The notes beneath the pieces are model-generated. The model saw nothing but the letters and a program-made list of their open reading frames with translations, made no database searches and was not told the DNA's origin. The translations under genes and the position numbers were made by a program. DNA of 37,411 bases from Bacillota bacterium (lineage in GTDB: Bacteria > Bacillota > DTU025). The DNA is taken from the NCBI GenBank assembly GCA_019136685.1, contig JAGVTS010000095.1:1-37411 (forward strand), written 5' to 3'. This document shows positions 12,017 through 21,780 of this stretch, piece by piece (position 1 is the stretch's first letter; each line of letters opens with the position of its first letter).

Positions 12017-13669
12017 TTGGCAGACAGATCAAATGGCAACCTCGCCAAATTCGCAGGCATAGTCGCGTTGGGCACGGTTTTCAGCAAGATCCTAGGCTTT
12101 CTGCGGGAGACATCATTCGCCGCCCAATTCGGGGCGAGCTACGCGACAGACGCGTACCTGGTGGCTATGATTATCCCGACGCTGATGCTGATGGGAGTGG
12201 GGCCCGCCGTTACCACCACGTTGGTGCCGGTCTTCGCCGACCTTGAGCGGCGGCGCGGCCGGGACGCGGCGTTTGCTTCGGTAAGCGCGATCATAAACGC
12301 ATGTTTCATCGTTTCAGGCGCGGCCATGGTTGCCGGCATGGTGTTCGCGCGCCCCGTGGTTCGGCTGGTGGCGCCCGGGTTCTCCGGCGAGGCATTTGCG
12401 CTTACCGTCGAACTCACCACCATCCTGTTTCCGATTGCGGTTCTGACAGTGATGGCACACTGCGTAACAGGTGTCTTACATGCAGTGGGCAGGTTCGCGG
12501 CCCCGGCCGTGACCGGAATCGTGCAGAATGTAATCATCATCACTGCGATCGTGGCATTCGGCCCGCGGTACGGAATTCAGGCGGTGGCAGTAGGCACTGT
12601 ACTGGGTTCCCTGAGCATGCTGGCCGTGCAGTGGCCGGCCCTTCGCGCGTGCGGCTACAGGCACCGGTTCGCGCTGGACTGGAACGACACGGGGCTGCGC
12701 CAGGTGGGTCGGCTGATCGGACCGATCATCCTAGGCACGGCGGCATCGCAGGCAGGCGGTCTTGTCATTCGAGCCCTGGCATCGCGCCTGCCCGAGGGCT
12801 CGATCACATATCTCAACTACTCGCAGCGACTGGCGGCGCTGCCGGTGGGCGTGTTTGGAACTGCCTTGACAACTGTCCTTTACCCAACGCTTGCCCGTCT
12901 GTACTCTGAGGACAAGTCCGAATTCTCTAGAACCTTCAGGCGCTCGATTGGAATCGTCTTCTTCATACTACTGCCCATGGCGGCGGGACTGATGATCCTG
13001 GCTGCGCCCGTGGTGCGGCTGGCCTTTGAGCGTGGTGTTTTTACGGCGGAGGCCACTTCCGCTACTGCCGTCGCGCTGGTGTACGCAGCCATCGGGATAC
13101 CCTTCACGGGTCTCGCGGACCTTACGTCGAAGGCTTTCTACGCCACGCACGACACCCTCACTCCAGTGTTCGTGAACGTGGGCGCCGTGGGCGTTAACGT
13201 CGGGCTCAGCCTGACGCTTGTAGGGAGTATGCAGCACGCCGGGCTGTCGCTTGCTGCATCCTGCCAACCCATCGCTTCGTTCATGATCCTGCAGGCAATC
13301 TTGAGGCGCCGGGCGGCCGCATCCCAACGCCAGAGCGCGCCCACCGGCTCCACCGCTCGCGCTGCCTGGGGGCAGACCTCCGGGGAAACCGGGTCCCCGC
13401 GGGTCGGGGGGTACAGCCTAGCCGCATCACTTGCCAAGTCAGTAGTGGCGGCGGCGGTCATGTGGGCGGCAGTGTCGGCACTTGACCCGTGGTTTGCCGC
13501 GCGCCTTCCGCAGACGGGCACAATGGCCCAGGCTCTGCGGTTGGCTGCTTCTGTGGGCGTAGGCGGAGCGGTGTACTTCGGCATGGCCGCCGTGCTCAGG
13601 AGCGACGAACTTGCATTTGCGGCCGGAGCCGTGCGAAGTCGGTTGGATCGCGGCAGGCAGGCGCGCTGA
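12017..13669 (+). CDS. murJ: Lipid II flippase MurJ (MviN)
   Basis: A 550-residue integral membrane protein of the MOP superfamily with about 14 helices. The N-terminal block is typical of MurJ: GTVFSKILGFLRE, then ATDAYLVAMIIPTLM. SKAFYATHDTLTPVF, also typical, lies near residues 370-385. MurJ flips the peptidoglycan precursor lipid II across the cytoplasmic membrane. A Pro/Arg-rich soluble insertion (about residues 430-470) before the last two helices is not conserved. The start is TTG 12017 (SD GGAG). A strong hairpin at 13690-13725 ends the unit. Alternatives within the family (polysaccharide exporters) are less likely given the N-terminal motifs. Confidence 0.9.
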   Translation: MADRSNGNLAKFAGIVALGTVFSKILGFLRETSFAAQFGASYATDAYLVAMIIPTLMLMGVGPAVTTTLVPVFADLERRRGRDAAFASVSAIINACFIVSGAAMVAGMVFARPVVRLVAPGFSGEAFALTVELTTILFPIAVLTVMAHCVTGVLHAVGRFAAPAVTGIVQNVIIITAIVAFGPRYGIQAVAVGTVLGSLSMLAVQWPALRACGYRHRFALDWNDTGLRQVGRLIGPIILGTAASQAGGLVIRALASRLPEGSITYLNYSQRLAALPVGVFGTALTTVLYPTLARLYSEDKSEFSRTFRRSIGIVFFILLPMAAGLMILAAPVVRLAFERGVFTAEATSATAVALVYAAIGIPFTGLADLTSKAFYATHDTLTPVFVNVGAVGVNVGLSLTLVGSMQHAGLSLAASCQPIASFMILQAILRRRAAASQRQSAPTGSTARAAWGQTSGETGSPRVGGYSLAASLAKSVVAAAVMWAAVSALDPWFAARLPQTGTMAQALRLAASVGVGGAVYFGMAAVLRSDELAFAAGAVRSRLDRGRQAR

Positions 13670-15561: not shown

Positions 15562-16854
15562 TCACATGTTCACTATCAGGCTGAAGTCGCCGGACCTGGC
15601 GGCCTCGAGGATAGGCCCCATGTACTCATCTACTTGCGATGCCACCAGAGGCACCGGCATGTTCTGCAGTTTCGATTCCAGTTGTGGATTCTTGGCAGCG
15701 CCGAGTGCGCGCGAGACATGTTCATCAGTGAAACCTGGGAGTTCCGACAGCCTGGTCGGGAAGCCGATCTTCCGGCTCAGGTTGGTCATGCCTTCTGCGA
15801 CTACTATCCCCAGTTCACGTCCCGACAGGGCATCGAGATCTTCGGTAATGTACCCGTAGCGCCGGAATATGCCGCCCACTAGCCTGAGCTTATCTTCGAT
15901 CGCAGGCGCGAAGAACACGGCGTAGTAGGGGTTCATTATGGCGCAGGCGCGTCCGTGTGATGTGACGTCAACTAGAGAGAAGCTGTTGAGATGGGGGCCG
16001 TTGGTCCCTCCGACCATGATGGCGTATGCCCCGAGATCAGTGGCAAGGCCCAGGGCCTCGCGAGGCGCTCGTGCCTCGGGGTCGGCCATAATCGCAGGGA
16101 TGCCGGACACAATCAGCTCGATTCCTACCTCCGCTATCTCCTGAAGCAGGCCGAGGTTCGCGCCCTTTGCGCCGAGGAATACCTCCAGGCAGTGGGCGAG
16201 CCCATCGAATGCTCCGTCCAATGTCACGTCAGGCGGCGCGCTCCGGGTCAGCGAGTAGTCGAACACAGCCCGGTCGGGAGTCACCGCCTCATCCACTATC
16301 AGCTTCTTCTGTCCGGCCCAGGCGTCGGTGACATTGGAGTACTTGGTGAGGTGTGCCCCTGAGCCGGACGCAGTCTGCACAGCCGCCATCGGGAGCAACC
16401 TAGCGCCTGTGCGCGCAAGCGCCGGGCCGACCAGGCCCATTCCGTAGTAGCTTTCCAGCTCGGGGTCGTCATGCCCCAGGCAAGCTGCCACATTGGCGGC
16501 TTTGGCTGCGTCTATGGTGCTGCCTCCGCCGACGGCTACGATGCAGTCCGGTCGGTAAAGCAGTATGTAGAGGGACATCTTGTACACGTCGTCCAGCAGC
16601 GAATTGGGCCTCGATCCGGGAGCGATTCTATCGCCCGCCAGCTCTATGCCGGATTCGTTGAGGGATGAGACGACTTCTTCAACGATGGGCTTGAGCCACG
16701 CGCTGCGGTTGGCTATGACCAGCGCGCGCTGCCCCCCCAATTCGTTGGCGTAGGCGCCCACCCGTCCGAGCGCCCCATCACCGTAGGCGTATTTGTCTCC
16801 CCGGAAACGATGGATCAAGGCGCGGGCTCGATTCTTCAGATCGTCAGTATGCAC
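15562..16854 (-). CDS. Iron-containing alcohol dehydrogenase family protein
   Basis: About 430 residues with the Fe-ADH fold (PF00465). The N-terminal nucleotide-binding part shows VAVGGGSTIDAAKAAN. The metal-site region has DGAFDGLAHCLEVF (Asp and His) and, further on, SHGRACAIMNPYYAVF (His). Family members reduce aldehydes or oxidise alcohols with NAD(P) and a divalent metal; the substrate cannot be told. The frame is open back to 17148, but those extra residues are unconserved and overlap the divergent promoter of the HAD gene. I prefer GTG 16854, with AAAGGG 9 nt upstream (ATG 16872 is possible). It is divergent from the HAD-IIA gene and upstream of cstA. Confidence 0.85.
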   Translation of the reverse strand: MHTDDLKNRARALIHRFRGDKYAYGDGALGRVGAYANELGGQRALVIANRSAWLKPIVEEVVSSLNESGIELAGDRIAPGSRPNSLLDDVYKMSLYILLYRPDCIVAVGGGSTIDAAKAANVAACLGHDDPELESYYGMGLVGPALARTGARLLPMAAVQTASGSGAHLTKYSNVTDAWAGQKKLIVDEAVTPDRAVFDYSLTRSAPPDVTLDGAFDGLAHCLEVFLGAKGANLGLLQEIAEVGIELIVSGIPAIMADPEARAPREALGLATDLGAYAIMVGGTNGPHLNSFSLVDVTSHGRACAIMNPYYAVFFAPAIEDKLRLVGGIFRRYGYITEDLDALSGRELGIVVAEGMTNLSRKIGFPTRLSELPGFTDEHVSRALGAAKNPQLESKLQNMPVPLVASQVDEYMGPILEAARSGDFSLIVNM

Positions 16855-16932
16855 TCTCCACAACCCTTTCATTGGCTCATGTATCGTGATATCGCGGCCA
16901 TGCTCACATTTCGGCAAGACGATCCGAATTCC

Positions 16933-16961
16933 TTGAAAGGTTTTTGCTCGGCCTGTAGAAT
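16933..16961 (+). promoter_or_regulatory. Sigma-A promoter for the HAD-IIA gene
   Basis: TTGAAA (16933-16938) and TAGAAT (16956-16961) are separated by exactly 17 nt. The predicted transcript starts near 16968, so ATG 16970 would be almost leaderless. This favours the GTG start at 17012, which has GGGGGAGG in the leader. Confidence 0.6.
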
Positions 16962-17011
16962 CTCCAATAATGAAGAACAGACTCATCTTGGGGGAGGTTG
17001 GATTATTAGCG

Positions 17012-17806
17012 GTGCTGGAGCAAGTAAGGTGCTTGATTCTCGATCTGGACGGTACAGTGTACCTAGGCGACGAGTTGATACCGGGCGCGCTACTCCTGCG
17101 CCAGGCGGCACAGGATCTTGGAATCGATGTGTTTTTCCTCACGAACAACTCCTCGCGTTCGCGAAGCTACTACGCGTCCAAGCTTACCCGGATGGGCTGG
17201 CCGGTGACGTCCGATGGAGTGCTCAGCTCATCTCAGGCCACAGCCATCACTCTCAAGAACCGCGGTTACCGGAGGCTTTACGTTGTGGGTACCGAGAGCC
17301 TCACGGACGAGTTGACAGCCTACGGCCTCACGGTGTGCGACGACAGAGAGGAACACGTGGACTGCGTGGTCGTGGGGTTCGACACTTCGCTCGTTTACAG
17401 CAAACTGCGGGCGGCCGGACGGCATCTGCAGAGGGGGACGCCGATGATATCGACGAATCCGGATTTGGTCTGCCCCTTGGAGGGCGGCGAGTTCATCCCG
17501 GACTGCGCTGCCATAAGCGCCTGCCTGATGACGGCGTACGGCGTTACCACTGAGTACATCGGCAAGCCCGAGCGCGGAATGCTGGACCTGGTGGAGGCGA
17601 ATACGCCATACCGAGGCAAGCAGATTGCCATGGTCGGCGACAGGCTGTACACCGACATCCGTTTCGGCTCCAGATGGGGCCTTCTGTCGGTGCTGACGCT
17701 GTCGGGTGAGACAAGCCTGCCCGACCTAGGCCCGGACGACCATCCCGACCTGATCGTGGACGATGTGGGGCAGTTGGCCGAGATGATCCGTCATGCGCGC
17801 TCGTAG
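17012..17806 (+). CDS. HAD-IIA family phosphatase (NagD-like)
   Basis: About 264 residues with all HAD motifs: LDLDGTVYLGD (nucleophile Asp), TNNSS, IGKPE (Lys) and MVGDRLYTDI (acidic metal site), with a C2-type cap between TNNSS and GKPE. Relatives dephosphorylate p-nitrophenyl phosphate, nucleotides, phosphoglycolate or glycerol phosphate. The GTG start at 17012 gives the usual family N-terminus directly before the DLDGT motif; ATG 16970 is in frame but would lie at the predicted transcript start. The gene ends 16 nt inside the convergent glpP gene. Proximity to glpP hints at a glycerol-phosphate link, but this is speculation. Confidence 0.88.
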   Translation: MLEQVRCLILDLDGTVYLGDELIPGALLLRQAAQDLGIDVFFLTNNSSRSRSYYASKLTRMGWPVTSDGVLSSSQATAITLKNRGYRRLYVVGTESLTDELTAYGLTVCDDREEHVDCVVVGFDTSLVYSKLRAAGRHLQRGTPMISTNPDLVCPLEGGEFIPDCAAISACLMTAYGVTTEYIGKPERGMLDLVEANTPYRGKQIAMVGDRLYTDIRFGSRWGLLSVLTLSGETSLPDLGPDDHPDLIVDDVGQLAEMIRHARS

Positions 17807-18399
17807 GTCCATAGTTCCTTTTTGCTGGTAGACACGCCAAGCGCTCCGGAGGCCATGATCGATTCGATATCGGCGACCGTTTCTACCAAGCCGCCGGCGA
17901 TGAACGGCGGGATCTTGTCCATAGGCAACCGGTGCGCCATACTGGGAACCACCAGAGCGGGAAGGATTTCCACTGCATCAGGGCGCGATGATGCGATTAT
18001 CTCGAGGCCGGTCTTGAGCGATTCGGAATCCAGCATGAACAGGCGCTGAATCGCCATGAGGCCTTCGTTCTTGGCCGCTCGGATCAGAGTGCTTCTGGTG
18101 GTGAGTATTCCGCGCACGCCTATCTCAGTTGCCAACCACTTGATGCCTGCGGGATCCTTTCCGATACCCTGCACTAGATCGAGGTGGCAGAAGACCTGCA
18201 TTCCGAGGCACTCGCCACGTGCGCATACATCTCGCAGGTCGTAGAGAGTGCCGGTCAGGAAGAACACTAGCTTGGCCCGGTAGCGATGGGCAATATCCAC
18301 ATCTTCCACGCGTTTCAGCGCGGGTATTGCCGGATACTTCTTGAGATGCTGCCATATGCGTGCGCGGTCTTGTTCGCTGAGGCCGGGGATCCAATTCAC
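17791..18399 (-). CDS. glpP: Glycerol-3-phosphate responsive antiterminator GlpP
   Basis: A 202-residue TIM-barrel-like RNA-binding regulator (PF04309). Diagnostic blocks are KLVFFLTGTLYDLRDVC, GMQVFCHLDLVQGI, IRAAKNEGLMAIQRLF and IPPFIAGGLVETV, ending in GALGVSTSKKELW. In Bacillus GlpP binds glycerol-3-phosphate and prevents early termination in the leaders of glp genes. Here no glpF, glpK or glpD lies nearby, so it must act on distant genes or have been moved. The GTG start at 18399 has AAGGAG 9 nt upstream. The 3' end overlaps the convergent HAD gene by 16 nt. The family occurs essentially in Firmicutes, which helps place the organism. Confidence 0.93.
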   Translation of the reverse strand: MNWIPGLSEQDRARIWQHLKKYPAIPALKRVEDVDIAHRYRAKLVFFLTGTLYDLRDVCARGECLGMQVFCHLDLVQGIGKDPAGIKWLATEIGVRGILTTRSTLIRAAKNEGLMAIQRLFMLDSESLKTGLEIIASSRPDAVEILPALVVPSMAHRLPMDKIPPFIAGGLVETVADIESIMASGALGVSTSKKELWTYERA

Positions 18400-18435: not shown

Positions 18436-19650
18436 GTGCGTAAGCTATATCCGATGATACTCGCCGCGTTGGTGGCGGCTATCGCGGCGACTCTCGGTTC
18501 CGTCGCCCATGCCGCTCCTGAGGTGTCACGCAGTCCGCTGGATGTCAGCGGCGGCGTCCTGGCCATCATATATAGTTCGCCAGACTCTGCGCCGGCCCTT
18601 TCCGTCGAATACGACGGGCTCCAGTTGTTGCTGGGGTATCGGGTCGAGCCATTCGGGCCTTTCAAGCAGCCTGGCACTTCCGGGCGACTCCAGCTGTTCG
18701 CCGGGGCCGGCCTGCCCAAGTGGGGGCCCGGCCGCACGGGATCGCTCATGATGTCGGGTCGGACGCCTCCCGTGCCGCACGTCGGCTACCGCTTTGCCGT
18801 GGGCAGCGTAGACTACGTCCACTTCGTTGGCCTGATGGAGTCAGAGCAGCGAAGAAGGCTGATCGGGCATCGACTGGAGTACTCGCCCACAGCGTGGCTG
18901 CGCCTAGGGGTCAGCGAGACTGCTGTGGTGTCGGGGGAGGCCTCTCCTCTGCTCTACTGGCCTTTTCCCGGACTTCCGCTGTACGCGTTACAGCGGGCCG
19001 TTAGTCAGCGCGACAGGGCGCAGGACAGTCTCATCAACGTCAACCTCGGGGCCGACTTCGTGGCTACGCTGCCTGGAAAGGGGCGATGGCCAGAACTAGA
19101 AGCATATGGAGAGCTGCTGATCGATGACGCGCAGGGATCCATATCCAGCAGGGATGTGGTTCCGGACTTCCTGGGCGCGCTGGTCGGAGTGCGTGTTCCG
19201 CGATTCCCCTCGGACCCCCGTTTCGCGGTGCACCTGGAGTATGTGGCGATCGCCAACTATGTATACTCTCACAGAAACCCCGATTGCAACTACGTATATC
19301 GCGGAACGGGGATCGGCCACAGCCTGGGGCCTGACGCCGACATGCTGGCGCTTGCTGCGGATTTTCGGCCGGATTCTCGAACAGTCGTTTCGCTTGTCGG
19401 CGCCTTTGCTCGCCACGGTGAGGGCGAGATCGGCCATCCATGGTCGCCCGGAGAGGGCGGCAACCGCGAGGCGCCGAGCGGCGTCGTAGAAAAGACGGTC
19501 AGAGTATCGCTGGAGTTGGAGAGGATTCTGCTTGAGCCCGTGTTGTTCGCTGGACGGCTGGAGCTAGGTACAACGTTCAGCAAGGGGCACGTTCAAGGCA
19601 GCACACACAGGTACTGGCGCGCCGGGGCGGCCCTCGGCGTCAGGCTGTAG
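18436..19650 (+). CDS. Wzi-like capsule-assembly outer-membrane beta-barrel protein
   Basis: A 404-residue exported protein. Residues 1-26 are a signal peptide (cleavage after VAHA). The rest is rich in alternating beta strands and matches the Wzi family (PF14052). WGPGRTGSLM at about 96-105, YVHFVGLME, the LIGHRLEYSP block, VVSGEASPLLYWPF, AYGELLIDD, YVYSHRNPD and IGHSLGPDAD are in the family order. Wzi of E. coli is an outer-membrane lectin that anchors capsule. A close match in a genome with GlpP and RemA-like genes implies a diderm Firmicute. I chose GTG 18436 (GGAGG 8 nt upstream); a longer frame from 18286 overlaps glpP and hides the signal peptide. The strain-level role in polysaccharide display is inferred. 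Confidence 0.8.
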   Translation: MRKLYPMILAALVAAIAATLGSVAHAAPEVSRSPLDVSGGVLAIIYSSPDSAPALSVEYDGLQLLLGYRVEPFGPFKQPGTSGRLQLFAGAGLPKWGPGRTGSLMMSGRTPPVPHVGYRFAVGSVDYVHFVGLMESEQRRRLIGHRLEYSPTAWLRLGVSETAVVSGEASPLLYWPFPGLPLYALQRAVSQRDRAQDSLINVNLGADFVATLPGKGRWPELEAYGELLIDDAQGSISSRDVVPDFLGALVGVRVPRFPSDPRFAVHLEYVAIANYVYSHRNPDCNYVYRGTGIGHSLGPDADMLALAADFRPDSRTVVSLVGAFARHGEGEIGHPWSPGEGGNREAPSGVVEKTVRVSLELERILLEPVLFAGRLELGTTFSKGHVQGSTHRYWRAGAALGVRL

Positions 19651-19670: not shown

Positions 19671-20108
19671 TCAGAACCTTATTCGAAGCCCTGACCGGAG
19701 CCTGCCGTAGTTGCGCGGTGGGATCAACCATTCGAACTCGGCGAACCATGGGCCGAATTCGCCCCCGCCGATCAGGTGGAGCCCGGTTGAGCCAGGGGTG
19801 AACTCGCGGGTGATGCCCACCCCTCCGTAGAGACCGGTTAGGATTGTGAACTGCCTTGGATAGACCAAGAGCAGGGATGCGCCGGCGGACTTGGCCCCGC
19901 GCCCGATATCGAGGTTGACTGCCAAACGCAGGTATTCGGAGAGGCCTGCTCCCAGGCCCGCGCTGACGCCGTCTGCGATGATGAGCGACACCTGCGCCCG
20001 GTCCAGGCGAGGCCAGGCGTTGCCCGCCGCTGACACCTGTGCCGGTAGCATTGCCATTGCGACAGCGCTGAGCAGAACCGGTATGATAAGTGTGATAGTC
20101 TTATTCAT
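19671..20108 (-). CDS. Small exported protein, possible outer-membrane beta-barrel
   Basis: 145 residues with a clear signal peptide (residues 1-28, cleavage near VSA-AG). The mature part is glycine-rich with alternating hydrophobic strands, and the C-terminus ends in RSGLRIRF. A terminal Phe after alternating residues is typical of proteins inserted by the BAM complex. It is convergent with the wzi-like gene, 20 nt between stops, which fits a shared outer-membrane theme. I chose ATG 20108, which has AAGGAG 8 nt upstream; the in-frame start at 20126 lacks one. I do not recognise a named family, and no enzyme motif is visible. The barrel prediction is inference. Confidence 0.65.
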   Translation of the reverse strand: MNKTITLIIPVLLSAVAMAMLPAQVSAAGNAWPRLDRAQVSLIIADGVSAGLGAGLSEYLRLAVNLDIGRGAKSAGASLLLVYPRQFTILTGLYGGVGITREFTPGSTGLHLIGGGEFGPWFAEFEWLIPPRNYGRLRSGLRIRF

Positions 20109-20181
20109 TGAATACACTCCTTGCACACGCGTTGTGCTCGTTAGGCATCATGTACATTCACATTGCCTGGAGGACCAGCTA

Positions 20182-20649
20182 TTGAAAGACGCAAGCAGAC
20201 CAAGAATCGATAGATACTCCTGGCCCTTGGCCGCCCTGTGGTGGCTTCTTGCAGTGGCGTACCCGGTTCTTCTGATAGTGGCCGCAAGCCGTCCTGAGTT
20301 CGGCGCCGAGTTCACCCGGATGCTGATCGAGCGGTTGATGCCGGGCCTTGCGAGTCGGCATGTTCACATGCTGGTAGTGGCCATACGCAAGTCTGCGCAT
20401 TTCCTCGGGTACTCTCTATTCGCCACTATTCTTGTAAATGCCTTTCTGTCGTTCTCACGCCCTCCTCGCAGTCGCAGGACTTTGGCGATCGTATGTGCGG
20501 CGGCGGCAATCGCGGCCGTGGGAGTGGCGGCCATGGACGAGCAGATTCAGCTGACCGCGGCATTTAGATCCGGGTCGCGACAGGATGTGCTGGTGGACTC
20601 ACTTGGTGTGCTGACGGCTTTGGTCGTCCGGATCAGGCGCGTCGAGTAG
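20182..20649 (+). CDS. VanZ-like family membrane protein
   Basis: About 155 residues with four predicted membrane helices and the VanZ-like family pattern: IRKSAHFLGYSLFATIL in the second helix, then DEQIQLTAAFRSGSRQDVL with the conserved D-E-x-x-Q and R-x-G-x-x-x-D-V, and DSLGVL. VanZ gives low-level teicoplanin resistance in enterococci; most homologues, like this one, are of unknown cell-envelope function. The start is TTG 20182 with GGAGG 8 nt upstream. A longer frame (from 19891) runs antisense through the neighbouring exported protein and is rejected. It stands divergent from that gene, which starts 73 nt away. Confidence 0.85.
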   Translation: MKDASRPRIDRYSWPLAALWWLLAVAYPVLLIVAASRPEFGAEFTRMLIERLMPGLASRHVHMLVVAIRKSAHFLGYSLFATILVNAFLSFSRPPRSRRTLAIVCAAAAIAAVGVAAMDEQIQLTAAFRSGSRQDVLVDSLGVLTALVVRIRRVE

Positions 20650-20695: not shown

Positions 20696-20757
20696 AGGAA
20701 AGGCTGTCTGTCAAATCGCGCGTCGGCGGCCTGAAGGATGGTGGAGGATTGATGTTG

Positions 20758-21780
20758 ATGACTCTGGGAAAGACTAGGCTTGCTGTATTGATGGTAGTAG
20801 TAGTAGGGGCGTTGGTTCTCTTCACGGCATGTTCAAGCCCGGCTATGGCGGCACATCTGGTTGTCACTATGAGCGATGGCTCGCAGGTCACGTACAACAT
20901 CCCGGTTGATGAATCGCAGGTTCAGTCTGTGGTCCTGGGCTCGTCGGAGCAGTCAATGACCGATGCCGAGGCGGCCATTGCCACGGTAGACGGCGAACCC
21001 ATTACCAGGCAGGACTTCTACATAGCGCTATCGGATGCGGTGGGAAGGCCTGTACTGGATCAGCTCATAAGCGAGATGCTGCTTGCGCAGGCTGCCACCC
21101 GAGCCGGTGTGTCGGTGTCGAAAGATGAGGTGGAGCTGGAATTCGAAGCCGTTCGTCAGCAGGTGGGCCCGGAGTTTGAGAGTCTCCTGGCGCAGTACGG
21201 AATGACCGCCGATGATCTCAGGAACAATCTTGAGATTAGCCTACTTGTCTTCAAGATATCTACTAAGGACGCCGTCGTGACAGACGAACAGATTGCCGCC
21301 TACTACGACGAACATGCTGCCGATTTCGCGAGCCCTGAGATGGTAAGGGCCAGCCACATACTGGTAGAGACTGAGGCAGACGCACAGGCGGCTCTAGATA
21401 GGATCAAGGCGGGCGCGGATTTTGGGGAGGTCGCGGCAGCCATGTCGATGGATCCCGTGACTGCCCGGAACGGGGGAGACCTCGGGTTCTTTGCCGCGGG
21501 AGAGATGGTGAAGGAGTTCGAGGACGCCGCTTTCGCATTGACGGTGGATGAGGTCAGCGGGATCGTGAAGACTGACTATGGCTACCATATCGTACAGGTT
21601 ACTGACAGGGTTGAGCCCCGCCAGGCATCTCGCGAGGAGGTCGGCGGCATGATCGAGCGGCTGCTCAGGAGCGCCCATGCAATGAAACCGGCGGAACTCA
21701 TTGCCCAGCTCAAAGCGACTAGCCTGATCACCGTCTTCGATCCCAGGTTTGCAGACCTGGGCACTGCCCCGCTACCCTAG
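20758..21780 (+). CDS. PpiC-type parvulin peptidyl-prolyl isomerase (PrsA/SurA-like foldase)
   Basis: About 340 residues. An N-terminal hydrophobic segment ends in FTACSS, a possible lipobox, giving export and perhaps lipid anchoring. A SurA_N-like helical region follows (about residues 75-190, starting ATVDGEPITRQDF), then a Rotamase domain (about 195-290) with RASHILVETEADA, the GADFGEVA block, NGGDLGFF and GYHIVQVTDR. Such proteins help exported proteins fold; in a diderm they would act in the periplasm. GGAGG at 20743-20747 allows starts at ATG 20752 or 20758; I use 20758 for spacing. The region between lipobox and SurA-like part (LVVTMSDGSQVTYNIP) is unassigned. The HAD gene follows 13 nt downstream, probably co-transcribed. 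Confidence 0.88.
   Translation: MTLGKTRLAVLMVVVVGALVLFTACSSPAMAAHLVVTMSDGSQVTYNIPVDESQVQSVVLGSSEQSMTDAEAAIATVDGEPITRQDFYIALSDAVGRPVLDQLISEMLLAQAATRAGVSVSKDEVELEFEAVRQQVGPEFESLLAQYGMTADDLRNNLEISLLVFKISTKDAVVTDEQIAAYYDEHAADFASPEMVRASHILVETEADAQAALDRIKAGADFGEVAAAMSMDPVTARNGGDLGFFAAGEMVKEFEDAAFALTVDEVSGIVKTDYGYHIVQVTDRVEPRQASREEVGGMIERLLRSAHAMKPAELIAQLKATSLITVFDPRFADLGTAPLP

Follow-up and report, generated by a model that had tools for sequence, protein, structure and literature searches.

Wzi keeps the capsule on enterobacterial cells that also bear LPS, and the Escherichia coli protein is one that we take to be a member of the Pfam family PF14052 (Caps_assemb_Wzi). The alginate exporter AlgE, which belongs to another family, is an open export channel. 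Accounts of the solved Wzi structure from the E. coli group 1 capsule (2YNK) place helices before the barrel and count the barrel from residue 92 (PMC3791409, PMC9603273), and the earlier of them states, in 2013, that organisms with Wzi all possess Wza (PMC3791409). The later account presents 28 plugless homologues of the Wzi barrel, encoded near OPX genes, as candidate export porins (PMC9603273). In a literature search, with most subscription papers outside its reach, we found no prior report of Wzi in Firmicutes or Negativicutes.

We analysed a stretch of 37,411 nucleotides (the window), which is an entire contig (C82) of the 2.89 Mb, 254-contig assembly GCA_019136685.1. This genome is labelled G000 in our survey, in which genomes, contigs and loci carry G, C and L labels. 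The survey comprised a draw of 61 genomes, in which every genome closer than phylum to G000 sits in one order (n = 12, eight of them from one family), and a second draw of 398 Bacillota genomes used for co-occurrence of Wzi and BamA. A wzi-like gene lies in the window among the following features.

15562 to 16950, minus strand: iron-containing alcohol dehydrogenase family (PF00465, 99.9 bits); adjoins glpP in G003 and G007
16970 to 17806, plus strand: HAD-family phosphatase (PF13344, 86.1 bits); adjoins glpP in G001 and G004
17791 to 18399, minus strand: glpP, glycerol-3-phosphate responsive antiterminator, divergent neighbour of wzi (PF04309, 178.4 bits)
18436 to 19650, plus strand: wzi-like gene, exported plugless PF14052 outer-membrane barrel of 404 aa (Pfam 72.9 bits; 2YNK Z 24.3)
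19671 to 20126, minus strand (start at 20108 or 20126): small exported protein ending in F, convergent with wzi; candidate 8-strand outer-membrane barrel
20140 to 20649, plus strand: VanZ-family membrane protein (PF04892, 34.9 bits; NF037970)
20749 to 21780, plus strand: PpiC/SurA-N type foldase with a lipoprotein-like signal, PrsA/SurA-like (PF13616, 88.7 bits; PF13624, 42.2 bits)

The neighbourhood is conserved on its glpP side rather than lying in a capsule (Wza-Wzc/OPX) locus, as the E. coli gene does. Adjacency of glpP and wzi was found in 5 of the 7 Wzi-bearing genomes of the family (G000, G001, G003, G004 and G007), and the same five keep the order glpP, wzi, small exported protein, vanZ and PpiC/SurA-type foldase, with the small exported gene partly masked in G007. 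G002 retains only wzi-vanZ of this order; in G005 the contig stops after wzi and the upstream gene is not glpP. The small exported protein had no Pfam, NCBIfam or confident fold match, and its low-confidence model (pLDDT 55) has eight strands. A MurJ-family flippase gene (window 12017-13669) lies on the same stretch as wzi in both G000 and G004, and in G149 such a gene directly adjoins wzi (L121:8974-10593).

A reading of the window made from its letters alone, hereafter the sequence-only reading, had recognized a Wzi-type protein beside GlpP in a Bacillota host, and all three identifications held. The PF04309 match settles the divergent neighbour, and the G000 genome is supported as Bacillota. 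In a search of a genome collection that returned one named locus, the one relative of the window protein (71% identity) was on DHON01000086.1, 'Firmicutes bacterium UBA5389', which NCBI taxonomy lists under unclassified Bacillota; identical 60-base probes taken at 500-base steps equated this record with contig C128 of the same-genus genome G001. The sequence-only reading had pointed to a Limnochordia-like lineage, which is at most a suggestion, since neither this record nor the draws, where no genome carried a 'same class' label, bears on the class. The wzi-like frame has a GTG start with GGAGGTG just upstream, and its product begins with a hydrophobic signal segment ending in AHA, followed by the barrel. 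Residues 82-308 matched PF14052 at E 3.4e-20, far above the cut-off (72.9 against 30.1 bits), which was the only match to this family across the whole G000 assembly. The motifs WGPG, YGE..DD, YVYSH, GH.LGPDAD and RHGEG are common, with small exceptions, to eight aligned Wzi homologues, and the loop motif NYVYSH...G..LGPDAD aligns with TNYSYTHH...LG..MGGD of E. coli Wzi.

The structure model of the window protein, built with eight sequences, is of middling confidence (mean pLDDT 72.9, pTM 0.73). Its best match among solved structures was E. coli Wzi 2YNK (Z 24.3 over 302 residues at 3.8 Å), at least 5 Z units above all other structures matched; AlgE followed at Z 19.1, then OccD/OccK-type porins at about 18. 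AlgE resembles the window protein as a large polysaccharide-linked barrel, with an identity of just 10-12%. The sequence-only reading had expected an 18-strand barrel as in E. coli; the model shows a barrel of 16 strands, a count that is uncertain at this pLDDT.

The window protein differs from E. coli Wzi at its N terminus. In the model the first strand (residue 35) follows the signal segment with no intervening helix, and about 67 mature residues precede WGPG, against about 151 in 2YNK, making this part about 84 residues shorter. Among 24 Bacillota Wzi sequences measured (2 of them truncated at a contig border), the spacing between signal segment and WGPG-type motif was 38-82 residues in 15 and 177-200 residues in 6, the plugged class, with one value of 141 residues in the Wzi of G186, where there is a low-complexity insert. 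The window protein falls into the short, plugless class: it lacks the three-helix plug found at the N terminus of E. coli Wzi. Plugged Wzi proteins, such as those of G354, G222, G152, G229 and G125, share its protein family and its phylum, and BamA is present in their genomes.

Across 17 plugless sequences, columns with at least 80% identity made up 34 of 131 loop positions, 28 of 196 scored strand positions and none of the 25 scored periplasmic-turn positions. By the topology of the model, conserved residues would thus lie mostly in the surface loops and outer strand ends, a pattern that is suggestive but not strong; in a label-shift test the contrast of loop over strand was weak, with 28 of 368 shifts reaching the observed value. 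In ordinary porins conservation is not generally on the outer side, unlike that in plugless Wzi. The protein might nevertheless be a porin, general or for nutrients, that descends from Wzi and has nothing to do with surface polysaccharide, its place beside glpP in five of seven family genomes reflecting genome order or glycerol-related regulation; the similarity to OccD/OccK-type porins and the retention of Wzi in relatives lacking OPX (below) also lean this way. We regard such a porin as unlikely, given the lead of Wzi over every other structural match and loops that are conserved, not variable.

The sequence-only reading had argued from the Wzi barrel to a real outer membrane. G000 contig C114 encodes MreB, an S55-peptidase protein, TamB, BamA and OmpH, with an epimerase-like gene on the opposite strand. 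On contig C250, a 1220-aa protein (L113:4001-7660, minus strand) carries one SLH domain (25-68) followed by a long helical stretch, and its C-terminal region has F as the last residue; its N terminus matches 8bys and SlpA 7zgx. Its layout of SLH, stalk and barrel, the barrel being predicted from sequence alone, is OmpM/SlpA-like, as these tethers are described to have the same arrangement (PMC9388160). By a rough propensity estimate the helical stretch of SLH tethers in the family spans roughly 600 residues; besides L113, such tethers were read at L114, L157, L140, L154, L148 and L153. Of the 61 genomes 23 have BamA, among them all 12 from the order. With BamA, TamB, OmpH and the SLH tether in G000, and BamA across its order, the diderm inference stands, and the BamA and OmpM-type genes that it implied are in place; LptF, LptC, LptA and LptD-like genes were found in same-order genomes, and the G000 contig ends before this region.

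The standard lipid A pathway seems to play no part in building this outer membrane. LpxC, the committed enzyme of that pathway, was detected in 11 of the 61 genomes and in none of the 12 from the order. Searching with PF04453 found LptD in 0 of 61 genomes, LpxC-bearing ones included, so its silence on LptD is uninformative. Complete LPS gene sets have been described in Negativicutes and Halanaerobiia (PMC11448272). Although LpxC was not found, families f1 and f2 have a weakly matching LpxB-family glycosyltransferase in their outer-membrane cluster, and no such gene is labelled in the family f3 loci read.

L114:2485-3744: LpxB-family glycosyltransferase, weak match
L113:10234-11472: LpxB-family glycosyltransferase, weak match
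L165:11482-12741: LpxB-family glycosyltransferase, weak match

At all nine loci of the order that could be read, BamA-OmpH is followed by a gene whose single reading frame encodes both an LptF/G permease and an LptD-like protein, a count that leaves out G000 (locus unreadable), G006 and G011.

L071:13303-16632, plus strand: LptF-LptD fusion of G001; also in L072, L165, L118, L166, L171, L167, L168 and L169

These fusions are 1034-1115 aa long and span three families, the G007 copy running off its contig after 683 residues. All eight scanned matched PF03739. Matches to LptD_N/DUF3769, the latter being described as the cyanobacterial LptD family (PMC4365693), were weak and lacking in G009 and G010, where the LptD part is assigned by its resemblance, along its length, to the other fusions. 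The junction of the two halves consists of a basic or linker stretch, a hydrophobic segment and a segment of small residues, in this order; it is in register with the signal peptides of the separately encoded LptD-like proteins of G059 and G036. The simplest idea is that the fusion is a polyprotein that would be cut by signal peptidase at this internal signal-peptide-like segment. LptF/G and LptD-like genes are separate and adjacent in G059, G018 and G036. LptD is known in Veillonella (PMC5491611), where a 2016 paper reported that it could not find it (PMC5007114). A literature search to which most subscription papers were closed returned no earlier report of an LptF-LptD fusion.

In Bacillota, Wzi and an outer membrane go together. 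PF14052 matched at E 0.001 or better in 34 of 398 genomes (25 above the cut-off) and Omp85 (BamA) in 101; 33 of the 34 Wzi-bearing genomes have BamA (Fisher p about 7e-21, uncorrected for relatedness). In the remaining genome, G182 (L119, C10, 6540-8216), a plugged Wzi lies among sugar-transferase-like genes with no BamA match, possibly through transfer, contamination or a missed BamA. For the window, a contaminant contig or misbinned proteobacterial gene in a monoderm organism would be conceivable from a single diderm-type gene in a fragmented metagenome assembly, for which G182 offers a comparably odd pairing. Five family genomes, one of them the public record DHON01000086.1, share the gene order, and this conservation together with BamA throughout the order refutes a contaminant or monoderm host, to which we attach next to no probability.

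The relation of Wzi to OPX is looser. G000 has an OPX gene adjoining genes for a CpsB-type phosphatase and a Wzc-like ATPase, on C141, a contig other than that of wzi. No OPX was found, by a search with two families, in G003 and G004 (97% and 96% complete), yet both keep wzi. In other Bacillota a Wzi-family gene follows an OPX-Wzz-ATPase-CpsB set in G131 (by Pfam) and in G210 and G125 (by ORF order), and precedes one in G036 (by Pfam); the Wzi proteins of G036, G131 and G210 are plugless and that of G125 is plugged. Among the 23 BamA-bearing genomes of the 61-genome draw, 7 of the 11 that have Wzi and 4 of the 12 that lack it carry OPX, which is no firm association, and an OPX partner as a rule for Wzi was rejected.

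These neighbourhoods bear on a possible alternative, in our judgement somewhat improbable, in which the plugless barrel is itself the outer-membrane channel for polysaccharide export and its partner OPX does not cross the outer membrane. A like role has been proposed for WzpX/S/B of Myxococcus xanthus and plug-lacking Wzi barrels. With the plug gone and OPX partners nearby in other lineages (G036, G131 and G210), this is a serious rival; the alginate exporter is the second-best fold, and the matches listed for the G001 OPX protein do not include Wza_C (PF18412). The 28 candidate porins (PMC9603273) are likewise plugless; as that account has them, they lie near OPX, whereas the window gene is away from OPX and the wzi of its family persists even in relatives that have none. 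G003 and G004 would leave such a channel without its partner, and the long conserved extracellular loops could close the pore. The plugged Wzi of G125 also adjoins OPX, so plug loss is unnecessary for an OPX partnership.

The OPX proteins of the survey can be very large. That of G001 has 1860 aa and 19 SLBB domains (L067:3396-8975, minus strand), and those of G002 and G007, each in two contig pieces, have 10+11 (L068/L160) and 5+15 (L162/L163). In G000 (L059) the reading frame stops near L059:8262, beyond which further SLBB domains lie in another frame up to the contig end. The largest SLBB number stated in the sections of a published account drawn on here is 14 (PMC9603273). OPX length and SLH-tether length had the same rank order in six genomes of five families, a small, selected set with both proteins readable and the G002 pieces summed; of 11 OPX-bearing genomes it leaves out G000, G007, G018, G036 and G040, where the tether or the OPX protein was not whole or not found in the stretches taken. 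It is as if both lengths track the width of the periplasm.

Our best explanation, which we judge about evenly poised between right and wrong, is that the gene encodes a plugless Wzi-family surface barrel holding polysaccharide in the outer membrane of a diderm Bacillota without detectable LpxC. From its family, fold, lack of a plug and outer-side motif conservation, and from the outer-membrane machinery in G000, we infer glycan binding, the identity of the polymer and the state of the pore. The conserved surface loops would close the barrel and bind polysaccharide, which would thus be retained on the cell surface without lipid-A-type LPS. In G000 the polymer may be exported by the OPX protein of C141, beside the CpsB-type phosphatase and Wzc-like ATPase; in relatives without OPX the bound polymer would be another glycan. 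We counted in favour of surface binding the PF14052 score, the best match to 2YNK, the loop conservation, the Wzi-OPX neighbourhoods in other Bacillota, the OPX locus of G000 and the 33 of 34 genomes with BamA. Against it we counted the absent plug, the position of wzi outside the OPX locus, G003 and G004 without OPX, the weak shift test, G182 without BamA and the middling eight-sequence model. The outer-membrane-bound capsule of the sequence-only reading is plausible, weakened by the separation of wzi from the OPX locus and by Wzi without OPX in two near-complete genomes.

A wider picture, tentative and on the whole rather unlikely as a package, would give the order an outer membrane without lipid A, in which the LptF-LptD polyprotein, cut at its internal signal peptide, moves another glycolipid outward, and plugless Wzi holds a polysaccharide that is exported through a giant OPX tube with about 20 rings. 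The periplasm that this tube crosses would be unusually wide, and an SLH tether whose stalk has about 600 residues would bridge it. What sets these proteins apart from textbook Wzi is the missing plug and an order in which LpxC was undetected. A plugless form retained in diderm relatives of Firmicutes that lack detectable LpxC, two of them also lacking OPX, would mean that the core job of the Wzi barrel is independent of plug, LPS and Wza. Plugless Wzi also provides a handle on the outer-leaflet cover of such outer membranes, and so bear on the transition between one and two membranes.
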